This document shows positions 10,015 through 26,405 of a stretch of 64,000 nt of DNA, piece by piece. Every line of letters begins with the position of its first letter. Within the stretch, counting starts at the first letter, position 1. The position numbers were made by a program, and so were the translations under genes. Under the pieces are notes generated by a model. The model ran no database searches. It saw only the letters and a program-made list of their open reading frames with translations, and had not been told where the DNA came from. The stretch comes from Pseudomonadota bacterium (GTDB taxonomy: Bacteria > Pseudomonadota > Alphaproteobacteria > UBA2136 > JASBTF01), in NCBI GenBank assembly GCA_030148545.1, contig JASBTF010000002.1, positions 485,218 through 549,217 of the forward strand. The letters run 5' to 3'.

Positions 10015-10620
10015 ATGAGTGCAACCGTAGGAAAAGGGAATATACCGCCGTTAATGACCCGGCTGAAAGAAGAGCTTAGCTTGCTGCGTGAGCAAGTAGC
10101 GGTACAGGACGAACTCATTAAAGAACTTGAAAAACAAGCACATGAAGATAGTTTAACCGCACTGCCAAATCGCCGTGCTTTTGAGCGCGAGATGAAGCGT
10201 GCGTTACACCAATATCGCCGTTACCGCCGTAGTGGTGCCGTGTTGTTGGTAGATATTAATAGTTTTAAAAGCATTAACGATTCATTAGGCCATGCCGCAG
10301 GTGACCGTGTGTTACAGCATGTAGCGCGTTTACTGCGCCAACATGTACGTGAGAGCGACATGGTAGCGCGCTGGGCAGGCGATGAGTTTGTCATACTGAT
10401 GGTTGAAGCTGATGGTGTGGATGCTGAGCTAAAAGCTGCAGAATTAATGGCTGCGATAAAGCAGGTGCCATGTCGTATTGATGACCAAGAAGTAAGCGTG
10501 AGCTTGAGTATTGGTAGTTGTGGGTTTGAAGCTGCACGCAGTGTTAAAGGGCTGATTGAGCGTGCCGATGCCGCAATGTATGAGCAGAAGAGTAATTACC
10601 ATACAGCTTTAGCAGTTTGA
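10015..10620 (+). CDS. GGDEF-domain protein (AGDEF variant)
   Basis: Soluble 201-aa diguanylate cyclase-like protein. A short N-terminal coiled coil (residues ~10-40, LKEELSLLREQVAVQDELIK) precedes the GGDEF domain (DSLTALPNRRAF). The signature is AGDEF in RWAGDEFVIL; this variant can be active in other proteins. RESD five residues before it is a canonical RxxD inhibitory site, so product feedback is possible. A very strong ribosome site (GAGGAGGTG) precedes the ATG. The next gene is a paralogue with the same architecture, so the pair looks like a tandem duplication. Confidence 0.85.
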   Translation: MSATVGKGNIPPLMTRLKEELSLLREQVAVQDELIKELEKQAHEDSLTALPNRRAFEREMKRALHQYRRYRRSGAVLLVDINSFKSINDSLGHAAGDRVLQHVARLLRQHVRESDMVARWAGDEFVILMVEADGVDAELKAAELMAAIKQVPCRIDDQEVSVSLSIGSCGFEAARSVKGLIERADAAMYEQKSNYHTALAV

Positions 10621-10716
10621 TAATAAACAGGGTTGTGCTAATTTTTTGCACCAACACTTGAAATAATAACTTTGTTGAATACAATATAGTTAGAGAGTTT
10701 GAAAAAGGACGTAGCC

Positions 10717-11364
10717 ATGAGCAAGAAAACAGCAAGCCACACAATGGAAGACCTGATGCAAATGCGTACCCGCGCAGGGGATACTGACTCTGCAGAAATG
10801 GATGGTCTACTTGCTGAGATGATTGAGCTAAAGAAAACTGTAGATTATCAAAACAAGCTTATCCACTCACTAGAAGAAGATGCGATGACCGACCCGCTGA
10901 CAAAGCTGGTGAATCGCCGTGTTTTTGAGCAAGAGCTGGTACGTTCCTTAGCTTCTGCTAAGCGTTATAACCGCCAACATGCACTGCTGATGATTGATGT
11001 AAATGGCTTTAAAGATATTAACGATAATTTGGGCCACAGCACGGGTGACCGTGTGTTGCAGCATATTGCCCAGCTGGTGAAGCAAAACACACGTCCAACC
11101 GATGTGGTGGCGCGTTACGGTGGTGATGAGTTTTGTGTAATTCTTAATGACATCCGTGCTGCGGAGAATGGTATGGAGCGTGCTAAAGCTCTATCTGATC
11201 TTATTGCTTTAACACCTTGCGCGACCGATAAAGGTACGATCACAGTACAACTTAGCATTGGGGCGTATGCTTTTGGTGCGAGTGATGAGTTGAAAGAGGT
11301 AATTGCGAAGGCAGACAAGTCTATGTACGACATTAAGCAGACTGCACCGCGCTCAATTTTTTAA
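10717..11364 (+). CDS. GGDEF-domain diguanylate cyclase
   Basis: 215-aa soluble protein, a paralogue of the gene just upstream: coiled-coil N-terminus (LLAEMIELKKTVDYQNKLI), then DPLTKLVNRRVFEQEL and the intact signature RYGGDEFCVIL with RPTD as I-site. It should make cyclic di-GMP. The ATG at 10717 has AAGGA upstream; a TTG 18 nt earlier is rejected. A promoter-like TTGAAA (10658-10663), 16-nt spacer, TACAAT (10680-10685) lies upstream, so it has its own transcript. Confidence 0.9.
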   Translation: MSKKTASHTMEDLMQMRTRAGDTDSAEMDGLLAEMIELKKTVDYQNKLIHSLEEDAMTDPLTKLVNRRVFEQELVRSLASAKRYNRQHALLMIDVNGFKDINDNLGHSTGDRVLQHIAQLVKQNTRPTDVVARYGGDEFCVILNDIRAAENGMERAKALSDLIALTPCATDKGTITVQLSIGAYAFGASDELKEVIAKADKSMYDIKQTAPRSIF

Positions 11365-12056: not shown

Positions 12057-12085
12057 AAGTGGTGGCCAGGGGCGGGCTCGAACCG
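12057..12085. repeat. attL: copy of tRNA-Phe 3' end
   Basis: 29-bp sequence identical to 20450-20478. It contains the last 26 nt of tRNA-Phe including CCA but no other tRNA part, so it is the attachment half-site left by site-specific integration. The following bases contain GTTACAAAA-type repeats (about 12149-12170) that also occur near the other end, possible integrase arm sites. Confidence 0.9.
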
Positions 12086-12294: not shown

Positions 12295-13707
12295 TTAATT
12301 TAGTTCATCTGAGATAACTTTACGGTGCTTTTTAATTTGTTTCTTGATAGCTTTGGAGCCTAGTTTATTAGCTGCTCGGATAGCATATTTGATTGCATTA
12401 GCAGCTTCATTATAGTTTTGTGCGGTGAATTTATTTGAAATATTACGCCTGCGTATTTTAGTTTCACCTCTTTTGAGTCTATCTACTAAAAAAGTTTTGG
12501 ATGCTCTTCGTTTTTCTACTTCTAACTTCCAACGCAGCCTTCGCCAATAACGAGATAAAGTAGAAGAGCGAATTAAATAGCGCTTACCGTTAAAGGAAAT
12601 ACCTAAGTAGTCTAATTCTTTTGTTATTCCAGTGGTTGCAACTATTCCATTCTGTCTTACAAAACTGCATATAGTGGTTTTGGCATCGTTAATTTTTAGG
12701 GTGGTTCCTACATACTCTTTTAAGAGCTTGTTAACATTAGTCGCAACTTCCTGCTGAGTAAGGGTATTCTCTGGTAGAGAGACAAGTATATCATCAGAGT
12801 ATCTTTTATATAAGCCACCAAGGTTTACTTCAATGTATGCTTTCATCTGTAAGTCAAACTGCATCATGACAATATTAGATAAAAGAGCGGACATTGGTGA
12901 GCCTTGAGGGATACCATAGCTTTCAGTGTTACGTATTACGATAGACTTAGCATGTTTTCTAAAGTTATCGATTGAGCAAAGCCGGCCTTTTGGGGGAACC
13001 TTTAGACCTTGACTTTGTAACAGGTTTATCAATTCTTCTTTATCGCAGTGAGCATAATTTGTGTGTGATTTATATACCGTGAATTCTCCGTGGGGAAGTC
13101 GACCTTTACGAAGGGTTTGCCAATTAGCCAGCAAGGTGTCATGTGGGATAAAGTCAAAGAAACTTTTAATATCATATGCATACGCAGTACATGGAGCTAT
13201 CTCAGCTATTCGTTCAAATGCATCTTTAGCTAAATCAATATTGTCTAACCCCGTTTTGCGATAGGCAATTGAATTATTCTCTAGATGGTTATCTTTTACC
13301 CACTGGTCATATATAGGCTGTATTCTTTTTGCATAATATCTGTAAATATATCCATCCTTGTGACTTGCGTAGCGAAGTGGACGCTCTTTTTGTTTAACAC
13401 GGGTTCCAAAACCTTTGAAATATTTACCGAACCTACGTACTTTCTTATTGTAGCTTATGAAGGGTAAAAAAGAGTGTTTTGCAAGCTTAGACTCTGGTGC
13501 AGTAACCAATTTATAGGCTACCTCAGAATTACACGGCTCGTCTAAATGTTGGTAATATTTGCGTTGATAAACCTGAGATGCGTCACTGAGGAACTCTTTG
13601 TATGATAACTTTTTTAGTGGTGTTGCGAATGGCAAAACCCCTGAAGGGGACGTCGCGTCTGTCGCTAAATCCTTCAGGGGTGTCTTAAGGTGCTGTTTGG
13701 TGGTCAT
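12295..13707 (-). CDS. Defence-type reverse transcriptase (DRT2-like)
   Basis: Reverse transcriptase of 470 aa from the ATG at 13707 (a GTG at 13734 is the alternative; neither has a clear ribosome site). Motifs in order: RPLRYASH followed by IYRYYAKRI (~110-130), AYDIKSFFDFI with catalytic Asp (~177-187), SYGIPQGSPMSALLSNI (~263-279), KRYSDDILVSL with the catalytic Asp pair in YSDD (~303-306), and LDYLGISFNGKRY, then a Lys/Arg-rich C-terminus. No maturase, HNH or integrase domain is present. From family knowledge the RPL.YASH...IY.YYA region and YxDDI context resemble the DRT2/UG class of antiviral RTs more than retrons or group II introns; the exact class is inference. It is preceded by a candidate template RNA with its own promoter. 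Confidence 0.8.
   Translation of the reverse strand: MTTKQHLKTPLKDLATDATSPSGVLPFATPLKKLSYKEFLSDASQVYQRKYYQHLDEPCNSEVAYKLVTAPESKLAKHSFLPFISYNKKVRRFGKYFKGFGTRVKQKERPLRYASHKDGYIYRYYAKRIQPIYDQWVKDNHLENNSIAYRKTGLDNIDLAKDAFERIAEIAPCTAYAYDIKSFFDFIPHDTLLANWQTLRKGRLPHGEFTVYKSHTNYAHCDKEELINLLQSQGLKVPPKGRLCSIDNFRKHAKSIVIRNTESYGIPQGSPMSALLSNIVMMQFDLQMKAYIEVNLGGLYKRYSDDILVSLPENTLTQQEVATNVNKLLKEYVGTTLKINDAKTTICSFVRQNGIVATTGITKELDYLGISFNGKRYLIRSSTLSRYWRRLRWKLEVEKRRASKTFLVDRLKRGETKIRRRNISNKFTAQNYNEAANAIKYAIRAANKLGSKAIKKQIKKHRKVISDELN
13637..13681 (-). other. Strong hairpin inside the 5' part of the RT gene
   Basis: Perfect 11-bp inverted repeat (arms 13637-13647 and 13671-13681, ACCCCTGAAGG and complement), loop of 23 nt. 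On the coding strand the 3' arm runs into TTTT, so it resembles an intrinsic terminator inside codons ~9-24. It could be the 3' boundary of the upstream RNA, or attenuate RT expression. Confidence 0.6.
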
Positions 13708-13739
13708 ACAAAAACCGCTCAGCCAACGCCACACTTTGG

Positions 13740-13987
13740 TGAAAGAGAGGGATTCACCGCAAGGTTATTTAGCAGCATAATCACTCATACCTCACTCTAC
13801 GCAATTGCCATAGTATGTTACTATACAATATGGGGTAACCATTAGCATGAGTTACAGAAACAAAGTTCGTAACTTAACTTGGTATACCATCAAGGTTATA
13901 CTTGTGACTTACGATATTATCGAAGTTATCAAGTTTGTACTTGACTCGGTAAACCGACCATCCCTGCTCAGCTTTCCTAGCAGGCGG
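13740..13987 (-). ncRNA. Candidate structured template RNA of the RT locus
   Basis: About 250 nt between the promoter at 13993-14020 and the RT gene. In transcript order the sequence holds these hairpins: 13963-13984 (6 bp), 13946-13957 (5 bp), 13929-13944 (5 bp), 13908-13926 (8 bp, one bulge), 13891-13904 (4 bp), 13850-13874 (6 bp), 13810-13824 (6 bp) and 13738-13758 (6 bp). Two of them share the motif CAAG-N6-CTTG 39 nt apart. No sense ORF with a start and ribosome site covers it. DRT2-type and retron RTs use an upstream RNA as template, so this is the expected place and size; the RNA itself is inferred. Confidence 0.6.
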
Positions 13988-13990
13988 TAG
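13847..13990 (+). other. Open frame on the cDNA strand of the candidate RNA
   Basis: ATG (13847) to TAG (13988-13990), 47 codons; the frame is open from 13814. The peptide starts MSYRNKVRNLTWYTIKVI and carries an internal hydrophobic repeat (IKVILV, then IKFVLD 13 codons later). It has no good ribosome site. Its only stop lies at the predicted 5' end of the RNA on the other strand, so a cDNA ending at the RNA terminus would lack it. May be chance; noted because DRT2 makes a concatemeric ORF this way. Confidence 0.3.
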
Positions 13991-13992
13991 TG

Positions 13993-14020
13993 AATATACC
14001 ATAAGTAGTAGTTTTGTCAA
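13993..14020 (-). promoter_or_regulatory. Near-consensus sigma-70-type promoter for the RT RNA
   Basis: Minus strand: -35 TTGACA (14015-14020), 16-nt spacer, -10 TATATT (13993-13998). Expected transcription start near 13986, right before the first hairpin. It lies 68 nt after the OLD gene stop, so the RNA/RT unit can be expressed separately. Confidence 0.75.
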
Positions 14021-14087
14021 TCACCTATTGAGAGTGATAATGATAGCTTTATGCTCTTTGAGCTATGGATTTCATAAAGAGTCAAAA

Positions 14088-15812
14088 CTAGCTTTCTATC
14101 CCATTCCATTGACGTATTTGTTGGCATAAATCATTTAGCTGCTTTTCTAAGTCTAGAGTGTACATGTTTGTTTGATTAATTTCTGGGGTAAGGCGTTCTG
14201 CAAGGATAGATTTCTTAGCTTTATTGGTCATGTATGATTTTCTAGTTACACTTAGTGTGGGAGCATAGGATTCATGAAAGTCTTCATAGGTTTCAATTTG
14301 TTTAACAGATGTTTTGCCAATGTGTTTAGCAATAGCTTCAGGGGGTAAGTAGTTTTCAATTTCCTTACCTTTGGTAACCCAAACCATGAGAGAGTTTTCT
14401 TCAAAACCAGCTTTTAACCGTTTCTTAGTACTATTTAGCCCAGTACTAGAAGTTTTTTTATCACTATCCATTAAAATGGCAGCATTCCGGTTAAAGGTAA
14501 GAATATTAATTAGCTCGTTATTCTCTGTAGATGTATCAAAGTGAGACAGAATGCGTCCACCATAGTAAATACATTGGTAGTGCAACCCTTCTTGTAATTG
14601 ACCATTAGTATGTTCAGCTATCCAGCGGTTAAGGTAAATACGATCAGAAGGGCCTTCAACCCAGATTACTCCGTTGGACTGTAGTATATCACTGGCTCTA
14701 ATGTCTAAGTCATCCAAGATATTACAATTGCAAATATACGTTTTAGCTGTTGTCGCGCTAGAAACATTGTTTTTACTTGAGACATGAATAATTTGGCTAT
14801 CTTCACATGCGCTATATTGATCAATTAATACGTTTGAATGGGTGGTAATAAAAATGGGGCAGCCGTGTTCAATAGATATGTGGTGTAGATAGTTGATAAG
14901 TCGCCTTAGTAGAGCTGGGTGTAAATTGTTTTCTAACTCTTCAAAGCAGAAAATAAACTCTGAAAGCTTCTTCTTTTTTTCTTTAGGTAGAATATGAATA
15001 TAAGTCAAAACCATAATCACAGTTTTTAAGCCGCTGCCAGATAGAGATAGTGCGATATGTGTTTTACCTTCTTCTGATAAGTATATTTCCCAGTAACCAT
15101 TGTCCTTCTGTTGGCAGTGAATACTTTTAAATGTAAACTCGGGCTCAAATATTGTATTGAGGGCGTTAAGAATATCTTCATCTACAACAGAGCTGTTTTT
15201 TTCAACTTTATTTAAATACCTTTGTATTATGTTAGTGACACCAGTTCCATTATTTTGAATGGCGGTATTGGTATCAGGCTCTGGCACAATATCTCTCTCT
15301 GCGTGAATGCGTGCAAGTTCTTTACCAGCAAAGGGGTTTTCAAAGATCGCTCCCAACTTTCTTAGGTGTGATGTATCGTAAAGCTCTTCTATGTGTGGGT
15401 TGGGGTTAGCATCAATGGTTGCTGGTTTTTGTACGCTTATGATTTGATAATTATTGCTACTAACACCTTCGGCTTTTGCTAGTTTCCCAATGTATTCTTT
15501 ACCATAGTGCCAGTGATTTCCTAATATACCGTCACTGCTGGTACGACGTTTTTGAAAGACTGTTTCTAGTACATTTTGAGTAAGGTTGCGGTGTATTTCA
15601 ATAGTAGGTTCGTGTTTCTTTAAGTGGTAGCTAGCTTCTGGAAAAGAGAAGTCTTCCTGTATGAGATGCTTGAATATATCCAGCAGTGATGATTTTCCAG
15701 AGTTGTTACGTCCAATGATAATATTCAAATTTTTGATATCATCAAAACCAGCAAGTTTCTCATCAAAGCATTTGTAATTTTTGAAGTAAACTCGCACACC
15801 TTGGTATTGCAT
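14088..15812 (-). CDS. OLD-family ATPase/TOPRIM nuclease
   Basis: 574-aa protein with an N-terminal ABC/SMC-type ATPase and a C-terminal TOPRIM domain. Walker A is GRNNSGKSS (34-42); the signature-like LSLSGSGLKTVIMVL and Walker B FCFEELENNLHP follow near 260-300; the TOPRIM Glu is in WVEGPSDRIYLNRW and the acidic pair in AILMDSDKK, then KGKEIENYLPPEA. This is the layout of overcoming-lysogenization-defect nucleases, which act in several anti-phage systems (Gabija GajA, PARIS-like and Retron-Eco8-type effectors). No UvrD-like GajB partner is present. AAGGAT lies 7 nt upstream of the ATG. Convincing as an ATPase-nuclease; its partnership with the RT is inference from position. Confidence 0.85.
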   Translation of the reverse strand: MQYQGVRVYFKNYKCFDEKLAGFDDIKNLNIIIGRNNSGKSSLLDIFKHLIQEDFSFPEASYHLKKHEPTIEIHRNLTQNVLETVFQKRRTSSDGILGNHWHYGKEYIGKLAKAEGVSSNNYQIISVQKPATIDANPNPHIEELYDTSHLRKLGAIFENPFAGKELARIHAERDIVPEPDTNTAIQNNGTGVTNIIQRYLNKVEKNSSVVDEDILNALNTIFEPEFTFKSIHCQQKDNGYWEIYLSEEGKTHIALSLSGSGLKTVIMVLTYIHILPKEKKKKLSEFIFCFEELENNLHPALLRRLINYLHHISIEHGCPIFITTHSNVLIDQYSACEDSQIIHVSSKNNVSSATTAKTYICNCNILDDLDIRASDILQSNGVIWVEGPSDRIYLNRWIAEHTNGQLQEGLHYQCIYYGGRILSHFDTSTENNELINILTFNRNAAILMDSDKKTSSTGLNSTKKRLKAGFEENSLMVWVTKGKEIENYLPPEAIAKHIGKTSVKQIETYEDFHESYAPTLSVTRKSYMTNKAKKSILAERLTPEINQTNMYTLDLEKQLNDLCQQIRQWNGIES

Positions 15813-17249: not shown

Positions 17250-18677
17250 TTACGGACTAGCTAACTGCTCTCTGTAACAATATCCATTGTACTCCCTTAG
17301 GTCATACCGTTGTTCGTACAACTCATGGTCAATCTCAGAAATCTCATCAGGCTTCTCAGGGGCAGCAGAACTTTGCATAACATCCTTAAAGCTCTCTCTC
17401 ATGGTTTCTTTGAGAATATCCTTAGCTTGTGTTTGAACAATAAAGCTATCATGTACGGCAAGTACTACATACCCTTGTTCAAGCATACGTAACATCACTT
17501 GTTCAGCAATCTGTGCATCTCGATACTGCAACTCTTTACCAATGCCCTGAAAGAAGTAATCTGCCACAGGTGCATGCATCTCACTAAAAGCTACTGTAAT
17601 CGGTTCAAGAGAGTCAATACCAGGTGGGAGTGGTGGTAGCTGTCTAGGGGCTATATTTGCTTTAGCATTGAGTAACCGTTGGAACTGAATTTTGTAGGTT
17701 TTACGGAAGTCAGGGGTAAGTAGGGGGTTAATATGCTCCAAGCGGTAGGCGTCATCATTCGGATCCCATTTCTCACCGATATGAGCATAAAGCAAAGATG
17801 GATGAATAGCTTGGTAGTCTAATTCAACAGTAGGCTTAGAGTTTATTGTAATGAATCTTCGGTATTTGCTCTCGATTCCCTCCCACCATGCGCCATAGAA
17901 TCGACCACCTCGGTCAAACTCTGCTCGACCATCGTTAAACACCCTGTGTAAGTATTTTTTACTGAAGTTAACAGGAGGTTTGTAGGATTCTTCTTGTTCA
18001 TCACTGGCATCGTTTGCAATCGCAGCATAGCGTCTCTTGTTGTACTCTTGTAATTCATCATCAGTGACGAATAGATTTATATGGGCAGCGTCTAAGGCGC
18101 TATTGATGGTCAATAAGTTGCTACGCATTGTATTCGTGTGGTCAGTGTCGCTGTAATCGATACGTTGCTTGTTATCATCCTTAAGAATAATAGTTTCAGC
18201 GTTACGGTAGTCTATTTCCACATAGGGTAAACCCTCAGGGAAGTGCTCGGCTAACTTACTGAGGAGCTTAGGCGTTGCTCTAACAACTGTGCTTAACCCT
18301 CTGCCAATCTCACCCTCAACAATATCTAGATAACCAAGTTTAACCAATGGGTGCATGGATTTTTCAATCAGGTGAGCATGGCTAATCTCTGCTCGTTGGT
18401 AACGTGACTGGCTAGAATAGTAATTACTTCTGCACCGCATAATAATACTGAGGTTAGGATCGGCCACATGGTTGTACACAATATTTAGCAGAAGTGCTCT
18501 GAGGCTTATTCTAAAGCTGTTTGATTGGCTTTCTGTTAAACCTCTGCCTCGATTCAAATGGCTGAGTATTTCTTCCTCAAATCTGCATACAGTAAGTGCC
18601 ATTTGTTCGTCATCTGACTCAAGGTAAAAATCAAAGTGTTGAGCGTACTTAGGATTAATGGGGAGGGTGGCAGTCAT
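17250..18677 (-). CDS. Element protein with family A DNA polymerase-like palm motifs
   Basis: 475 aa from the ATG at 18677 (ATG 18722 is an alternative). The C-terminal half has GGRFYGAWWEGI (~258-269), then PTVELDYQAIHPSLLYA (~283-298), which looks like polymerase motif A with its catalytic Asp, a Lys/Arg helix RKTYKIQFQRLLNAKA (~325-340) in the place of motif B, and VLAVHDSFIVQ (~405-415), a motif C. The N-terminal half is helical, perhaps a DNA-binding domain. No exonuclease domain is seen. Similar proteins sit next to integrases in other alphaproteobacterial elements as far as I recall; a polymerase function is inference. It overlaps the integrase gene by 23 nt. Confidence 0.6.
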   Translation of the reverse strand: MTATLPINPKYAQHFDFYLESDDEQMALTVCRFEEEILSHLNRGRGLTESQSNSFRISLRALLLNIVYNHVADPNLSIIMRCRSNYYSSQSRYQRAEISHAHLIEKSMHPLVKLGYLDIVEGEIGRGLSTVVRATPKLLSKLAEHFPEGLPYVEIDYRNAETIILKDDNKQRIDYSDTDHTNTMRSNLLTINSALDAAHINLFVTDDELQEYNKRRYAAIANDASDEQEESYKPPVNFSKKYLHRVFNDGRAEFDRGGRFYGAWWEGIESKYRRFITINSKPTVELDYQAIHPSLLYAHIGEKWDPNDDAYRLEHINPLLTPDFRKTYKIQFQRLLNAKANIAPRQLPPLPPGIDSLEPITVAFSEMHAPVADYFFQGIGKELQYRDAQIAEQVMLRMLEQGYVVLAVHDSFIVQTQAKDILKETMRESFKDVMQSSAAPEKPDEISEIDHELYEQRYDLREYNGYCYREQLASP

Positions 18678-20379
18678 CGTTTGTATCTCGTGTTGGTTTA
18701 ATATTATCCCATGGTAAGTCAAAGGCTACAGTGTTGATAGCTTCTTGCATTGCGTTCAGGGTTGTTTGGCCATAGTTTGAACGAGCAGAACCCTCGTTAT
18801 GGCCTGCAAGACTATCGATAATAATCTGATTGGTATTGAGCTCACGTAGTTTGGTGATAAACGTATGGCGGAAACTGTGGAACACGAGCCCACCACCGTG
18901 TAGCTCAAGGGTTTTCATCCACGTAGCGTAACGCTTAGAGAAGATATTAGCGTAGTTCTGACGCTTGCTACATAAAGGTAGCTCAGGGAATAACTTGCTA
19001 TGTCCTTCAGTGGTAGCTCGCTGCTGGTAATCCAGTAAGCCTAGCTCAATGAGCTTTTGATGCAGAGGAACCTTACGGGCTGAATGGTGGTTCTTAAGTT
19101 TTTTGTGTGTGCCGTTAGTATTAATATCTATGAGCCAAATGCCTTCCTGTTCGTAAATATCGTTAGTATCTAATTGACAGATTTCATTCATACGAGCGCC
19201 AGAGAGTAGGGCAATGAGCGGTACCCAAAAGAGCCCATCTTCAATAACGGTAGTACCAGCAGCATAGCGATGATGGCTGTTACGTGAACCACGATAAACA
19301 GGACTGCTAAAGATTTTCTGTAGATGCTCCAGTTTGTAGGGCTTGATAGGTGTAACTTGGCTACTAGAGCCATTTATCTGTAGACCTTGGAATGGATTAT
19401 CACCCTCATAGTAAGCATTGTTAACTGCCCATGTGAACAACGTTTGCATAGAGAGCAGCTTTTCATTCACAGTCTTTACGCTTTGTCGTTCAGTTTCAGG
19501 AACGTTGAACTCTAGAATCTTTTGAATATCCATATCGCGATAAGGTTTACGTTTACGCATATTCTTAGGGAGCTTAAGTAGGTTTTCCTTAAAGGTTACG
19601 GCATCGTGTTTGGTGATATCGGCAAGTGGCTTATCACCCATGAGTTCTTGCCACAGGGCAAAGGTGGCTGTCTTAGTTGTTTTACTACTGGTACCAGAGG
19701 TATCTTGCTGTTGGTATTTTTGTATTGCTTCGGAGAACTGTAGGGGTGGAAGAGCTGTTTGTTGGTTAGCCTCCTGTTCGGGTGGGTACTGTAACCAATC
19801 GCTCTTATGTGCCAAAGGTTGGTGGTGTACGTACTGCTGGCACAATTGTTGGATAGCCTCTTGTACCTGTAAGGCTCCCATACGTGCTAGCTCTTTGTAA
19901 GCTGGTGTGGATTTACCAACGGTAAGCCTCTGTGTGCTAATGATATGGTCGCTTATATCAAACAGTGGGTCAGTAGCACTACGGTTCTCAAATGGCTTTA
20001 GGATGTTATCTGTAACGTCTTCTAGAGTAGGGGCATCCGGGTGGGGTTCGTACTCTGTGCCGGGGATAAGCTTAAAGCGGTCACCTGTTCGCGTTTGCTG
20101 CATCCATGCTTCAAAGCGTTCGATACACTCTTGGTAGTAGCGTTGGGTAATCTGTTGAATTTCTGCTGTTGTGAGGTCGGGCATGCTCTCTACTGTTCTA
20201 AATATCTCTTTAGTTACCAGAGCCATACTAGAGCAAAGCTCCTTAGCTTCGTAGAGGAAAGTTGTGTTGAGCGATTTAACAAGCTCTGGCTTACCAAAGC
20301 GTTGCCTTAGTTCTATTGGGACACTGATACGAAAGTAATACGTAGCACTGCGTCGGAGTAGGTACGATTGCTTTGCCAT
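18655..20379 (-). CDS. int: Tyrosine recombinase (integrase)
   Basis: 574-aa site-specific recombinase that should integrate and excise this element at tRNA-Phe. The N-terminus (YLLRRSATYYFRISVPIELR) is the DUF6538-type head common in proteobacterial island integrases; a core-binding region follows, then the catalytic domain with Arg in LLSGARMNEICQL, Lys near RKVPLH, HSFRHTFITKL and the LAGHNEGSARSNYGQ segment with the Tyr nucleophile. The ATG at 20379 has AGGTG upstream. The gene starts 71 nt from the attachment repeat. Confidence 0.93.
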   Translation of the reverse strand: MAKQSYLLRRSATYYFRISVPIELRQRFGKPELVKSLNTTFLYEAKELCSSMALVTKEIFRTVESMPDLTTAEIQQITQRYYQECIERFEAWMQQTRTGDRFKLIPGTEYEPHPDAPTLEDVTDNILKPFENRSATDPLFDISDHIISTQRLTVGKSTPAYKELARMGALQVQEAIQQLCQQYVHHQPLAHKSDWLQYPPEQEANQQTALPPLQFSEAIQKYQQQDTSGTSSKTTKTATFALWQELMGDKPLADITKHDAVTFKENLLKLPKNMRKRKPYRDMDIQKILEFNVPETERQSVKTVNEKLLSMQTLFTWAVNNAYYEGDNPFQGLQINGSSSQVTPIKPYKLEHLQKIFSSPVYRGSRNSHHRYAAGTTVIEDGLFWVPLIALLSGARMNEICQLDTNDIYEQEGIWLIDINTNGTHKKLKNHHSARKVPLHQKLIELGLLDYQQRATTEGHSKLFPELPLCSKRQNYANIFSKRYATWMKTLELHGGGLVFHSFRHTFITKLRELNTNQIIIDSLAGHNEGSARSNYGQTTLNAMQEAINTVAFDLPWDNIKPTRDTNDDCHPPH

Positions 20380-20449
20380 TCTGTTACACCTCACTGTTAC
20401 AAAACGAGGTTTTTCAGAAATCTGCCAGTTAACTATTTGATTTTAATAG

Positions 20450-20478
20450 AAGTGGTGGCCAGGGGCGGGCTCGAACCG
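20450..20478. repeat. attR within tRNA-Phe
   Basis: 29-bp sequence identical to 12057-12085, covering the 3' end of the intact tRNA-Phe gene. Crossover falls within this block, which restores a full tRNA after integration. Confidence 0.9.
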
Positions 20479-20528
20479 CCGACACAAGGATTTTCAGTCC
20501 TTTGCTCTACCAACTGAGCTACCTGGCC
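20453..20528 (-). tRNA. tRNA-Phe (GAA)
   Basis: 76 nt with a 7-bp acceptor stem (GGCCAGG/CCTGGCC), D-arm (AGCTCAGTTGGTAGAGC), anticodon loop CTGAAAA with GAA, T-arm GGTTCGAGCC and encoded CCA. It is the integration target of the element. Confidence 0.97.
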
Positions 20529-20650: not shown

Positions 20651-20683
20651 CTTTTGGCATTAATATTGAATACAATATACAAT

Positions 20684-23059
20684 ATGGAGAGAAACACACC
20701 GCACCACGTTACACAGGCCGAGCAAGATGCTCTTATTGAAACAACTGTAGCAGTTGCTGAAGAAGCACCTGTAGAGCAGGAAGCTACTGAAGCAGAAGTA
20801 GCTGCTGAAGTTGTGATTGAAGAAGGCCAGCCAACTCCTGAGTTTATTGATTTTAGCGCTATTGAGCCTGCAGCAGGCCCTGCGGTGTTGAGTGAATCTT
20901 CTGCGCTGACCCCACCACAACTAGTACCAGCTAGTATTGAACGTGATGAAGAGCTAGGTGCAGAGCGTGACGCTCGCAGCGATGTAATTAGCGACGTACC
21001 AGCAATTGCACCAGCGGTTGCGCAAATTCCATTTTTTGCACAAGTAGCTAACCGTGCTGATTTGCCACCACGTATTATTCGTGTTGCTTTGCGTCAACTG
21101 CGTGAGGAAGCACCAGTGCAGCAAGAGCCTGCACCACAGCCACAGCCAACGCCTGACCCAGAACCACAGCCTGAACCTACTCCAGATCCTGAGCCTCAGC
21201 CAGAGCCGGAGCCAACACCAGAACCTACGCCAGAGCCTGCGCCACAACCTGAGCTGATCCGTGGTACCGAGCGTGCAGATGTATTAACTGGTGGTAAAGC
21301 TTGGGAGCGTATTGAAGGTTTGAACGGTAACGACACAATTGACCCAGGTAATAGCAATGCTGACCAATTGGTGGGTGGTCGCGGTAGTGATATTTACATT
21401 GGCCATCATGGTAAATGGTCGGAGATTCGTGATGAGCAAGGCAGTAACGATGTGCTGCGTGCAGAAGGCCGTACTGATATTGATTTGAAGCTAGAAGATG
21501 GCTTTAGCGGTGATGTAAGTGGTTTGGAGCGTATTAGCAAAGGTGCAGATGTAGATACGCTGGATATTATTGCTCGCAATAATAACACCGCCGTAGATTG
21601 GGATTTTAATGGCGTGAACATGAGCGCTGTGGATGAAATTCGCGGTAGCAACATGGATGATGAGATTCATGGTGGTAACAGCGCCGAGGTTATTGATGGC
21701 GGTAAGGGTGACGATATTCTTCATGGTGGTGAAGGTAGCGATGTACTGCGCGGTAACAGTGGCGTGGACCAGCTAAATGGTGGCGGTGGTAACGACCGTT
21801 TGGATGGTGGTAACACTAACGGTGATATTCTGGATGGTGGCCGCGGTAGCGATATTTTCCTCGCGCGCCATGATAAAGCTTGGCATTACGATGATGAGCA
21901 AGGTAGCAACGATGTAATTTTGGCTGAAGGCCGCAGTAATTTCCGCGTAAAACTGTACGATGGATTTAGCGGTGAGGATAGCGGTATTGAGCGTATTAGC
22001 GCTGGCGATGATGTAAATGACCTAGACGTGGTAGCACAAAGCAATAATGTTGCCGTAGATTGGGATTTCAGCGGTGTGAACATGAATGATGTTGACGAAA
22101 TTCGCGGTAGTAATCTGGATGATGAAATTCGTGGCGGTAACAGCGCTGAAACTATTAATGGCGGTAAGGGTAACGATATCCTCCACGGTGGTGAAGGTAG
22201 CGATGTATTGCTTGGCCATAGCGGTGTGGACCAGCTAAACGGTGGCGGCGGTAACGACCGTTTGGATGCTGGTAACACCAACGGTGATATTTTGGATGGT
22301 GGCGGCGGTAGCGATATTTTCCTCGCGCGTCATAACAAAGCTTGGCAGTACAATGACGAGCAAGGTAGCAACGATGTAATTTTGGCAGAGGGCCGCAGTA
22401 ACTTTAACATTAAGCTGTACGATGGCTTTAATGGCGATGATAGCGGTATTGAGCGTATTAGTGCTGGCGATGATGTGAATAACCTAGATGTCATCGCGCA
22501 AAGTAATAACACCGCTGTAAACTGGGATTTCAGCGATGTGAACATGAATGATGTAGATGAAATTCATGGTAGCCATAAAGCTGATACCATTATTGGTTCT
22601 AACGGCCATGATGTAATTGAAGGTGAAAAAGGTAACGACATTCTGGTTGGTGGTAACGGTAACGACCAACTGTTTGGTGAAGCAGGTGACGACATGCTGC
22701 TGTGGGACCGTGGTGATAGCGTGATTGATGGCGGTAGCGGTTTTGATACTGTAGTTGCTGAAAACCGTAGCTTGAATGTAGACCTAGATAGCGGTGTATT
22801 TGCCAATGTGGAAGCATTCGATGTAACCAACAACCGTAATGATGACCTTACCATTAATGCCTCAGATGTACTGGACCTAAGCGATGACCGTCGCCTGGTG
22901 ATTGAAGGTGATGCAGGTGATGAAATTAGCAGTGTAGATTTTGTTGACCGCGGCGCAAATGAAGTGCTGGGTGATACAACATTTGCCACCTTTAGCAGCG
23001 GTAGAGCTGACCTATGGGTAGAGCTAGGCCTAGAGCTAAACGGTGTGGTGCTGGTATAA
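20684..23059 (+). CDS. RTX-like calcium-binding repeat protein
   Basis: Acidic 791-aa protein. Residues ~1-150 are Glu/Ala/Pro-rich with no signal peptide; a Pro-Glu/Gln/Asp linker (about 145-185) follows; the rest has glycine-rich nonapeptides of the GGxGxDxLx type. Three copies of a 154-aa module lie in tandem with an exact 462-bp period (DNA anchors at 21389, 21851, 22313). Each module pairs an LxxGFSG..SGIERIS segment with RTX repeats. Such proteins usually leave by type I secretion and bind calcium; no type I exporter is nearby. The start has no ribosome site; TACAAT abuts the ATG. Confidence 0.8.
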   Translation: MERNTPHHVTQAEQDALIETTVAVAEEAPVEQEATEAEVAAEVVIEEGQPTPEFIDFSAIEPAAGPAVLSESSALTPPQLVPASIERDEELGAERDARSDVISDVPAIAPAVAQIPFFAQVANRADLPPRIIRVALRQLREEAPVQQEPAPQPQPTPDPEPQPEPTPDPEPQPEPEPTPEPTPEPAPQPELIRGTERADVLTGGKAWERIEGLNGNDTIDPGNSNADQLVGGRGSDIYIGHHGKWSEIRDEQGSNDVLRAEGRTDIDLKLEDGFSGDVSGLERISKGADVDTLDIIARNNNTAVDWDFNGVNMSAVDEIRGSNMDDEIHGGNSAEVIDGGKGDDILHGGEGSDVLRGNSGVDQLNGGGGNDRLDGGNTNGDILDGGRGSDIFLARHDKAWHYDDEQGSNDVILAEGRSNFRVKLYDGFSGEDSGIERISAGDDVNDLDVVAQSNNVAVDWDFSGVNMNDVDEIRGSNLDDEIRGGNSAETINGGKGNDILHGGEGSDVLLGHSGVDQLNGGGGNDRLDAGNTNGDILDGGGGSDIFLARHNKAWQYNDEQGSNDVILAEGRSNFNIKLYDGFNGDDSGIERISAGDDVNNLDVIAQSNNTAVNWDFSDVNMNDVDEIHGSHKADTIIGSNGHDVIEGEKGNDILVGGNGNDQLFGEAGDDMLLWDRGDSVIDGGSGFDTVVAENRSLNVDLDSGVFANVEAFDVTNNRNDDLTINASDVLDLSDDRRLVIEGDAGDEISSVDFVDRGANEVLGDTTFATFSSGRADLWVELGLELNGVVLV

Positions 23060-25179: not shown

Positions 25180-25785
25180 TTAGAATCCAATAGGCCTGCC
25201 GCTTACAACACTCCCGGCACGGAACCACAGGGTGTTGGTGTTATCGGGGTTAACATCCCACTGTAGGCGGCCGCTATTGGCAGCATCGGTTTCTTCGCGA
25301 GGGTCAAAAATTTTGTTGAGTTCACGGGTTACGTTAGGTGGGGTTTGGTCAAACGTGAGCCACAGGCTACACACCATGCCAATACCACAAGTGTTGCGGT
25401 GGTTTTGGTCCTCACGGCGCAGTAGGCGAATTTTGCCATACACAGGGTGTACGGTAGAGCGGTTTTGCACATAAGGTCCAAGCCAGCGCGCTTGTAGCTT
25501 GGCATCCATTTTTAGGGAGCCTTTGTCGTACAGAGCGCGGTAAGCATCCTCATCGCCACCAGTGTATGTGGCGTAGTGTACACCTACTTTAAGGTCGTAC
25601 TGCATGCCTTCAATAGCGCGTGCGGTTTCTTCCAGTTCTTTACTAAAGCCATGAGCACGAATAGAACCCACGCTCATTACTCCGGCGGTACCCGCTACAA
25701 CGGAGAGAATACTAAAAATACCAATGGCAATGCGAGCATCGAGCCCAAATAGTGCACCGCGCTGGCAGGTGAATATGTTTTTCAT
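25180..25785 (-). CDS. Prepilin-like protein B
   Basis: 201-aa protein with a short basic head, then RGALFGLDARIAIGIFSIL and one hydrophobic helix (to about residue 45), then a soluble C-terminal domain. This layout is that of type IV pilin-like or type II secretion pseudopilins, though the classical GFTLIE site is not present. It is a paralogue of the gene upstream, which shares QRGA-FGLDARIA-G. Stop and start overlap as TAATG, so bamE and both paralogues form one operon. Confidence 0.55.
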   Translation of the reverse strand: MKNIFTCQRGALFGLDARIAIGIFSILSVVAGTAGVMSVGSIRAHGFSKELEETARAIEGMQYDLKVGVHYATYTGGDEDAYRALYDKGSLKMDAKLQARWLGPYVQNRSTVHPVYGKIRLLRREDQNHRNTCGIGMVCSLWLTFDQTPPNVTRELNKIFDPREETDAANSGRLQWDVNPDNTNTLWFRAGSVVSGRPIGF

Positions 25786-26405
25786 TAACGTCTCATACCT
25801 TTATGTTCAGTAGTGCGGAAGTACAAGTCTACCATATCATCGGTATTGCTGCTGCCTTGTAGGCGGCCTAGTTGGTGTTCGCTCGCTTCGTCTTCAGGCA
25901 CGGCACTGGCGTCAAAATAGTGGTTAATGGTTTGCCACACTTTGAGCGGCACCTCGGTCAGTACAATCCAAGCGTAGCAAGGCTTGCCATAGGCACAGGC
26001 TTCTCGTGCATTAATTTGTCCAATGGAAATACTATATTCGCCAAAGCGTGGGTGGTCGCGGTTCATTTCACGCAAGTAGGGGCCGTTCCAGTGGCGACGC
26101 AGGCGTGGCATAACGGCGTTTTTATCGGTTAGTGCTTGGAAATCGCGAATACCATCGCTGCCACCATTAATGCTAAAGGGCACAAACACACCAATATCTG
26201 CTTGGTACTCGGTCATTGCATCGTTAATGGCTTCAAGTTCATGAATAGCAGCAGCGTAACGTGCTTGGTGAATTTTGCTCATGGCAAAAAAGCCAATCAT
26301 GGTGGTCATAATACCAAAAACGCCAAGGGCAATCCGGGCGTCTAGCCCAAACATAGCACCACGCTGTGCGCTAGAAAGACGGCGTAATGCGGCGAGGATA
26401 GGCAT
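25785..26405 (-). CDS. Prepilin-like protein A
   Basis: 206 aa, same layout as its downstream neighbour: basic head (LRRLSSAQRGAMFG), LDARIALGVFGIMTTMIGFF as hydrophobic helix, a helical region with YAAAIHELEAINDAMTEYQ and a globular C-terminal part with two Cys (EACAYGKPCYAW). A similar cysteine pair occurs in the paralogue (NTCGIGMVCSLW), so a conserved disulfide loop like that of pilins is likely. Exact role unknown. Confidence 0.55.
   Translation of the reverse strand: MPILAALRRLSSAQRGAMFGLDARIALGVFGIMTTMIGFFAMSKIHQARYAAAIHELEAINDAMTEYQADIGVFVPFSINGGSDGIRDFQALTDKNAVMPRLRRHWNGPYLREMNRDHPRFGEYSISIGQINAREACAYGKPCYAWIVLTEVPLKVWQTINHYFDASAVPEDEASEHQLGRLQGSSNTDDMVDLYFRTTEHKGMRR

Follow-up and report, generated by a model that had tools for sequence, protein, structure and literature searches.

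In DRT2 systems, ribonucleoproteins copy an ACA-flanked template, and the tandem repeats so formed recreate a sigma-70 promoter, with a spacer of 17 bp, together with an endless reading frame (neo) that runs on the opposite strand to the RNA; the lengths of the repeat units are divisible by three (PMC12039810, PMC11100668). This RNA-templated gene creation has been established for DRT2 systems close to that of Klebsiella, with the divergent clades left open (PMC12039810, PMC11100668); for the latter, annotation of Neo was described as more challenging and possible alternative mechanisms were suggested (PMC11100668). Here we describe a locus within a 64,000-nucleotide stretch of an alphaproteobacterial contig (hereafter the window), which probably encodes a divergent DRT2 antiphage system that is carried on a tRNA-Phe genomic island and copies a central RNA template into a neo gene.

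The window encodes a DRT2 reverse transcriptase

A first-pass annotation of the window had pointed to a DRT2-like reverse transcriptase (RT) with the motifs RPLRYASH, GIPQGSP and YSDD. All three motifs lie within one intact open reading frame (ORF), in which the catalytic residues are complete (Table 1). The NCBIfam Drt2 profile (NF041746) matched residues 56-477 with 381 bits (E 1e-114 to 7e-114), which is 9 bits below its curated equivalog cut-off of 390, and the next family scored 72 bits. The Drt2 profile of PADLOC matched with 386 bits (E 1e-116), and the closest solved protein by sequence is the DRT2 RT of Klebsiella pneumoniae (KpDRT2; 9c0i; E 9e-66). We also generated an AlphaFold2 (AF2) model from an alignment of 35 sequences (pLDDT 89.7). 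Its best match in the PDB was again 9c0i (E 2e-37, TM 0.88 over the whole chain), in agreement with the DRT2 fold, which is characterized by a long thumb and a fingers insertion; weaker matches were obtained for DRT9 (E 4e-12) and a group II intron RT (E 1e-10).

Phylogenetic placement, one of the checks named in the first-pass annotation, put the RT inside DRT2 with no grouping with group II intron maturases. The tree comprised 88 rows, with relatives taken from plasmids, genomes and viral contigs, and was obtained by a quick maximum-likelihood search with few outgroups. The window RT falls within a mostly-YSDD clade of 33 rows (SH-aLRT 98) that lies apart from the all-YCDD clade of KpDRT2. 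Its sister is locus L015 from uncultured Alphaproteobacteria (39% identity, support 88), and its exact position is unsure because the end branch is long. The presence of YSDD instead of YCDD, which had been raised as a reservation, is real, but it is no argument against DRT2, since RYSDD occurs in 29 of the 88 rows. Taken together, profile, tree and fold make the assignment of the window RT to DRT2 secure.

No relative with more than 39% identity to the window RT was found among 96 relatives and in genomes of the same order (18), class (385), phylum (398) and the order of G071 (4), and a related-locus search with the window protein alone returned no relatives. Elsewhere in the family, stops or frameshifts have shortened the DRT2 RTs of L059 (5980-6969) and L016 (384-1262), which come from Alishewanella jeotgali and an Acinetobacter MAG.

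The in-frame RT starts are GTG at 13734, ATG at 13707 and TTG at 13635. DRT2 homology starts at residue 53-56 of the longest ORF (about 13578-13569), and translation probably begins downstream of the start of that ORF. The late onset of homology makes TTG 13635 a likely start codon.

Table 1. Features of the DRT2 locus and of the island that carries it, in window coordinates.
Feature	Position	Strand	Description
RT ORF	12295-13734	-	479 codons counted from first GTG (13734); intact
DRT2 RT, proposed part	12295-13635	-	Profiles and AF2 model; TTG 13635 as probable start from position of RNA 3' scaffold
Sigma-70-type promoter for RNA and RT	13993-14020	-	TTGACA (14020-14015), 16-nt spacer, TATATT (13998-13993), TG ahead of -10; 11/12 consensus matches
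Predicted non-coding RNA, about 359 nt	13628-13986	-	Fold z -3.65 and 3' scaffold match; ends predicted
5' handle hairpin	13963-13984	-	CCUGCU-AGGAAAGCUG-AGCAGG; in MFE and centroid folds
Terminal scaffold hairpin	13630-13681	-	ACCCCUGAAGG...CCUUCAGGGGUUUUGCC; best but weak match to canonical scaffold model; 11-bp perfect inverted repeat
Candidate pseudoknot strand UUGCGU	13801-13806	-	Complementary to ACGCGA in loop of terminal hairpin
Candidate neo frame, antisense to RNA	13814-13987	+	58 codons; sole open antisense frame
Candidate neo -35, TTGACT	13941-13946	+	Encodes LD of ..VLDSVN..; compare CLDSVN in L065
Candidate neo -10 boxes	13814-13829	+	TATGTT (13814-13819), TATACA (13822-13827), TACAAT (13824-13829)
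Candidate neo ATG start	13847-13849	+	In frame; TGGGG (13831-13835) upstream
Candidate repeat unit A, 150 nt	13812-13961		Word CCAT at 13808-13811 and 13958-13961 (AUGG in RNA)
Candidate repeat unit B, 120 nt	13819-13938		Word TGT (ACA in RNA); endless 40-aa frame; no good -35
Candidate repeat unit C, 141 nt	13819-13959		Endless frame; TTGACT-18-TACAAT; no jump word
Left direct repeat (att)	12057-12085	+	29-bp identity with 20450-20478
Right direct repeat	20450-20478	+	Overlaps 3' end of tRNA-Phe (20453-20528)
Tyrosine integrase, beside tRNA-Phe	18655-20394	-	PF00589 E 1e-13; phrog_1 E 4e-30

A structured RNA is predicted between the promoter and the reverse transcriptase

The near-consensus promoter that the first-pass annotation had noted on the RT strand is present, and the region 13550-14120 contains 6 promoter-like sites, whereas shuffles contain 1.3 +/- 1.3. 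The interval from this promoter to the RT is free of sense genes. The segment 13705-13993 (289 nt), which roughly represents the hairpin-rich RNA of about 250 nt proposed earlier, folds modestly better than shuffles (z -1.97), whereas 13986-13628 (359 nt) folds with z -3.65, below 100 of 100 shuffles. Its terminal hairpin has a perfect stem of 11 bp, with UUUUGCC after it, and is the candidate counterpart of the canonical GCCGGGG...CCCCGGUUUUGCUA. The best match to the canonical DRT2 scaffold model, at 13681-13635, scored 6.5 bits (E 0.046 for 501 nt), which is weak alone; given a palindromic hairpin, the opposite strand also reached 4.2 bits with this model. This match suggests that the RNA overlaps the annotated N-terminus of the RT, with its 3' end near 13628, so that it would be about 100 nt longer than first proposed and the RT would probably start later than the longest ORF. 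The earlier proposal was right about a structured region free of sense genes, and its estimate of the extent of the RNA was probably short.

The canonical RNA model covers only the terminal hairpin of the window RNA, and does so weakly. Run over 55 sources, a covariance model of the canonical scaffold recovered canonical members and almost nothing from the YSDD clade, and Rfam reported no family in the window except tRNA. The hairpin at the 5' end may correspond to the handle that canonical and clostridial RNAs have before their template, and pairing of UUGCGU with ACGCGA in the terminal loop may be the counterpart of the canonical UGCGGU:ACCGCA pairing. We considered UUGCGGUGAA (about 13751-13761) as the canonical post-template sequence and rejected it by hand inspection, because the implied template lacks an open frame and the terminal loop lacks a CCGC partner.

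The locus resides on a tRNA-Phe island

That the RT is carried on a tRNA-integrated element, as had been proposed, was borne out by identical 29-bp repeats, the overlap of one repeat with tRNA-Phe and a tyrosine integrase. These features delimit an island of about 8.4 kb, integrated at tRNA-Phe, that carries the integrase together with the RT and RNA unit. Directly upstream of the DRT2 promoter, the same island encodes an OLD-like ATPase (14088-15812, minus strand) with a weak TOPRIM match (GajA/AriA-like profiles), which is probably a second defence gene. Among the related loci searched, a homologue of this ATPase was found near DRT2 in L023 only (41% identity), and with just one other DRT2 locus so accompanied, we rejected the gene as a component of DRT2.

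Other genes on and around the island were recorded as observations in their own right. An ORF of 490 aa (17250-18722, minus strand) matches phrog_4756, of unknown function (E 5e-46), has no Pfam match and contains DYQAIHPSLLY and VHDSF, which are reminiscent of the family A DNA polymerase palm. A protein of 801 aa with GGxGxD-like (RTX) repeats lies immediately past tRNA-Phe (20654-23059, plus strand), and a tandem pair of GGDEF-type proteins lies to the left of the island (10015-11364, plus strand). At 25180-26405 (minus strand), two neighbouring paralogues of pilin-like appearance share the N-terminal motif RGA(L/M)FGLDARIA.

Most divergent DRT2 loci carry the gene-writing signature

Because Neo is hard to annotate in divergent clades (PMC11100668), we built a neo test that does not assume ACA motifs. 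It calls for a promoter with a 17-nt spacer rebuilt over the repeat junction, a unit length divisible by three, an endless frame and a word of 3 nt or more, of whatever sequence, that both ends share, hereafter the jump word. A scan restricted to ACA words recovered canonical loci with constant geometry (-35 at -12, a 17-nt spacer and -10 at +11 around the junction) and was unsuccessful for most of the divergent clade. With the motif-free test, 30 of 45 divergent loci passed (1.5 in shuffles, 3 on the other strand), as did 31 of 40 canonical loci (0.5 and 3) and 20 of 30 loci from the RT clade of the window (1.2 and 2), counts that overstate the number of separate events because the rows are not independent and include some close relatives. 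Related loci carry an upstream RNA with conserved neo logic, which is in line with the conservation across homologues expected from the first-pass annotation.

Jump words tend to be common within lineages. In the RT clade of the window they include ACGC in a Hyphomicrobium/Rhizobium group, AGTTTAT in Gastranaerophilales, AACT and others, and ACA is not used by the relatives there; outside the clade, a Vibrio/Photobacterium group shares ATCT, and the word in Acinetobacter is AGAT. All eight loci from Clostridia (L073, L078, L080, L083, L088, L090, L093 and L094) have CAAT (ATTG in RNA) as a candidate jump word, with units of 132-150 nt, a rebuilt TTGACA-17-TATAAT (TACAAT in L090) and an endless frame that spans 44-50 codons. 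Alignment of the clostridial loci showed conservation of ATTGTTGTCAA at the 5' end and of the second ATTG after the -10 hairpin. Failures in the RT clade of the window, which include L066, L068, L069, L071, L079, L085 and L086, may use another geometry. Taken together, these sequence comparisons indicate that the gene-writing signature reaches through divergent DRT2 systems with exchangeable jump words, which goes beyond earlier reports in the open-licence literature.

Candidate neo units in the window

In the window, no unit unites a jump word, a promoter with a 17-nt spacer and an endless frame. We do not take this result to exclude membership in DRT2, because the published criterion covers no more than the near homologues of the Klebsiella system. 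Three units are candidates, with lengths of 120, 141 and 150 nt, and the one that fits best anatomically, of 150 nt, has an in-frame stop; which -10 box would be in use depends on the unit. The order of -10-like boxes, TGGGG, ATG, TTGACT and open frame is the same as in L015 and in L065, a locus from a Rickettsiales MAG, and the peptide proposed for the candidate neo product is TIKVILVTYDIIEVIKFVLDSV. The length of the 58-codon antisense frame is not significant, with frames as long in 29% of shuffles, and we rejected this frame alone as evidence of neo. It is nonetheless likely that the copy in the window writes a gene, because most of its clade has the full signature.

One possible reading, though a doubtful one, is that this gene is closed. 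Joining of the 150-nt unit at AUGG would rebuild TTGACT-17-TATGTT and, because an in-frame TAG falls at the junction, would yield a discrete 38-aa protein per repeat (MSYRNKVRNLTWYTIKVILVTYDIIEVIKFVLDSVNRP). The unit is divisible by three, the spacer is exactly 17 nt, the unit in L065 is also 150 nt and, as it does in both canonical and clostridial RNAs, the 3' word immediately precedes the pseudoknot strand, here a candidate. However, the -10 is weak (4/6), the pattern of promoter plus word appears in 5.8% of shuffles, the 5' word is 1 nt from the handle compared with 6-7 nt elsewhere, and frames are endless in published systems and in all relatives that pass the test. We regard as improbable the combined proposal that DRT2 systems unlike that of Klebsiella keep gene writing with lineage-specific words and that the toxin gene written in the window is closed, with 38 aa and a stop at the junction.

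It is somewhat unlikely that the window undergoes canonical rolling-circle copying of the 120-nt unit, with endless Neo expressed from a weak or internal promoter. This unit is bounded by TGT at both ends, as in canonical DRT2, has the length of the Klebsiella unit, is open throughout and contains TTAACT-17-TATACT, but it offers no usable -35 over the junction, leaves outside the TTGACT that aligns with the -35 of relatives and relies on ACA, which relatives in the clade do not use. Loss or change of the neo function, such that the RNA still primes DNA synthesis but yields a product with another mode of action, as in DRT9 or DRT10, or decay of the system, also appears improbable: the window fails a test passed by two thirds of its clade, as do 10 of 30 others, yet its RT is intact with all catalytic residues, its promoter is strong and its fold is DRT2-like and far from DRT9 (E 2e-37 compared with 4e-12). 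A retron or group II intron RT, to which we assign next to no probability, shares the RT core and yields 63.8 bits (retron St85 model) and 71.8 bits (group II model, TIGR04416), but is ruled out by profile (381 bits for Drt2, with the retron cut-off of 235 and the maturase cut-off of 300 not approached), by the tree and by a fold nearest to DRT2, and Pfam finds RVT_1 only, with no maturase or endonuclease domain.

Discussion

Computation established the DRT2 membership and fold of the window RT, the island, a structured RNA and the neo logic of its RT clade as a whole; for the copy in the window, we infer repeated copying, toxicity and defence. In the gene-writing mechanism that we favour, a single promoter would drive expression of an RNA of about 360 nt followed by the RT, which would bind the RNA through the 3' scaffold, composed of the terminal hairpin and the pseudoknot, and through the 5' handle. 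Upon infection, the RT would copy the central template over and over: on reaching the 5' end of the template it would jump to the 3' end, by way of a short word present at both. In the resulting tandem-repeat DNA, the -35 of one repeat would meet the -10 of the next to form a new promoter, and a short, hydrophobic, toxic Neo would be expressed from the strand opposite the RNA, which would stop growth.

According to the comparative test, divergent DRT2 clades widely follow the same gene-writing logic, with ACA as one of several interchangeable jump words. What appears conserved is the outcome, namely the spacing of the promoter, the reading frame and the length of the unit. The choice of jump word thereby becomes testable through word swaps between lineages, and copies like that in the window are marked as candidates for a different outcome.

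Among known systems, the DRT2 of K. pneumoniae (9c0i; PMC12039810, PMC11100668) shares with the window an RT of the same family and fold (32% identity, TM 0.88), a single promoter ahead of RNA and RT, the order of handle, template and scaffold, as predicted for the window, and a terminal hairpin followed by UUUUGC. In both, the antisense strand of the template has a promoter half at either end, as candidates in the case of the window. In contrast, the Klebsiella RT has YCDD and an RNA of 280 nt, whereas the window RT has YSDD and belongs to another clade, with an RNA of about 360 nt that the canonical scaffold model barely matches, in which the use of ACA-1 and ACA-2 is not clear and the frame is a candidate only. 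Like the window, L015 has YSDD and TTGAC followed by T.AAC, and its ATG lies 24 nt downstream of the -10, compared with 23 nt between TACAAT and ATG 13847; unlike the window, L015 passes the neo test, with the word AAC, a 129-nt unit and AAGGAGG before the ATG. L065 reads ..LDSVN.. at the -35, has GGGTAAC..ATT at an equal distance after the -10 and a 150-nt unit, as the window does, but differs in its endless frame and its word, ACGA.
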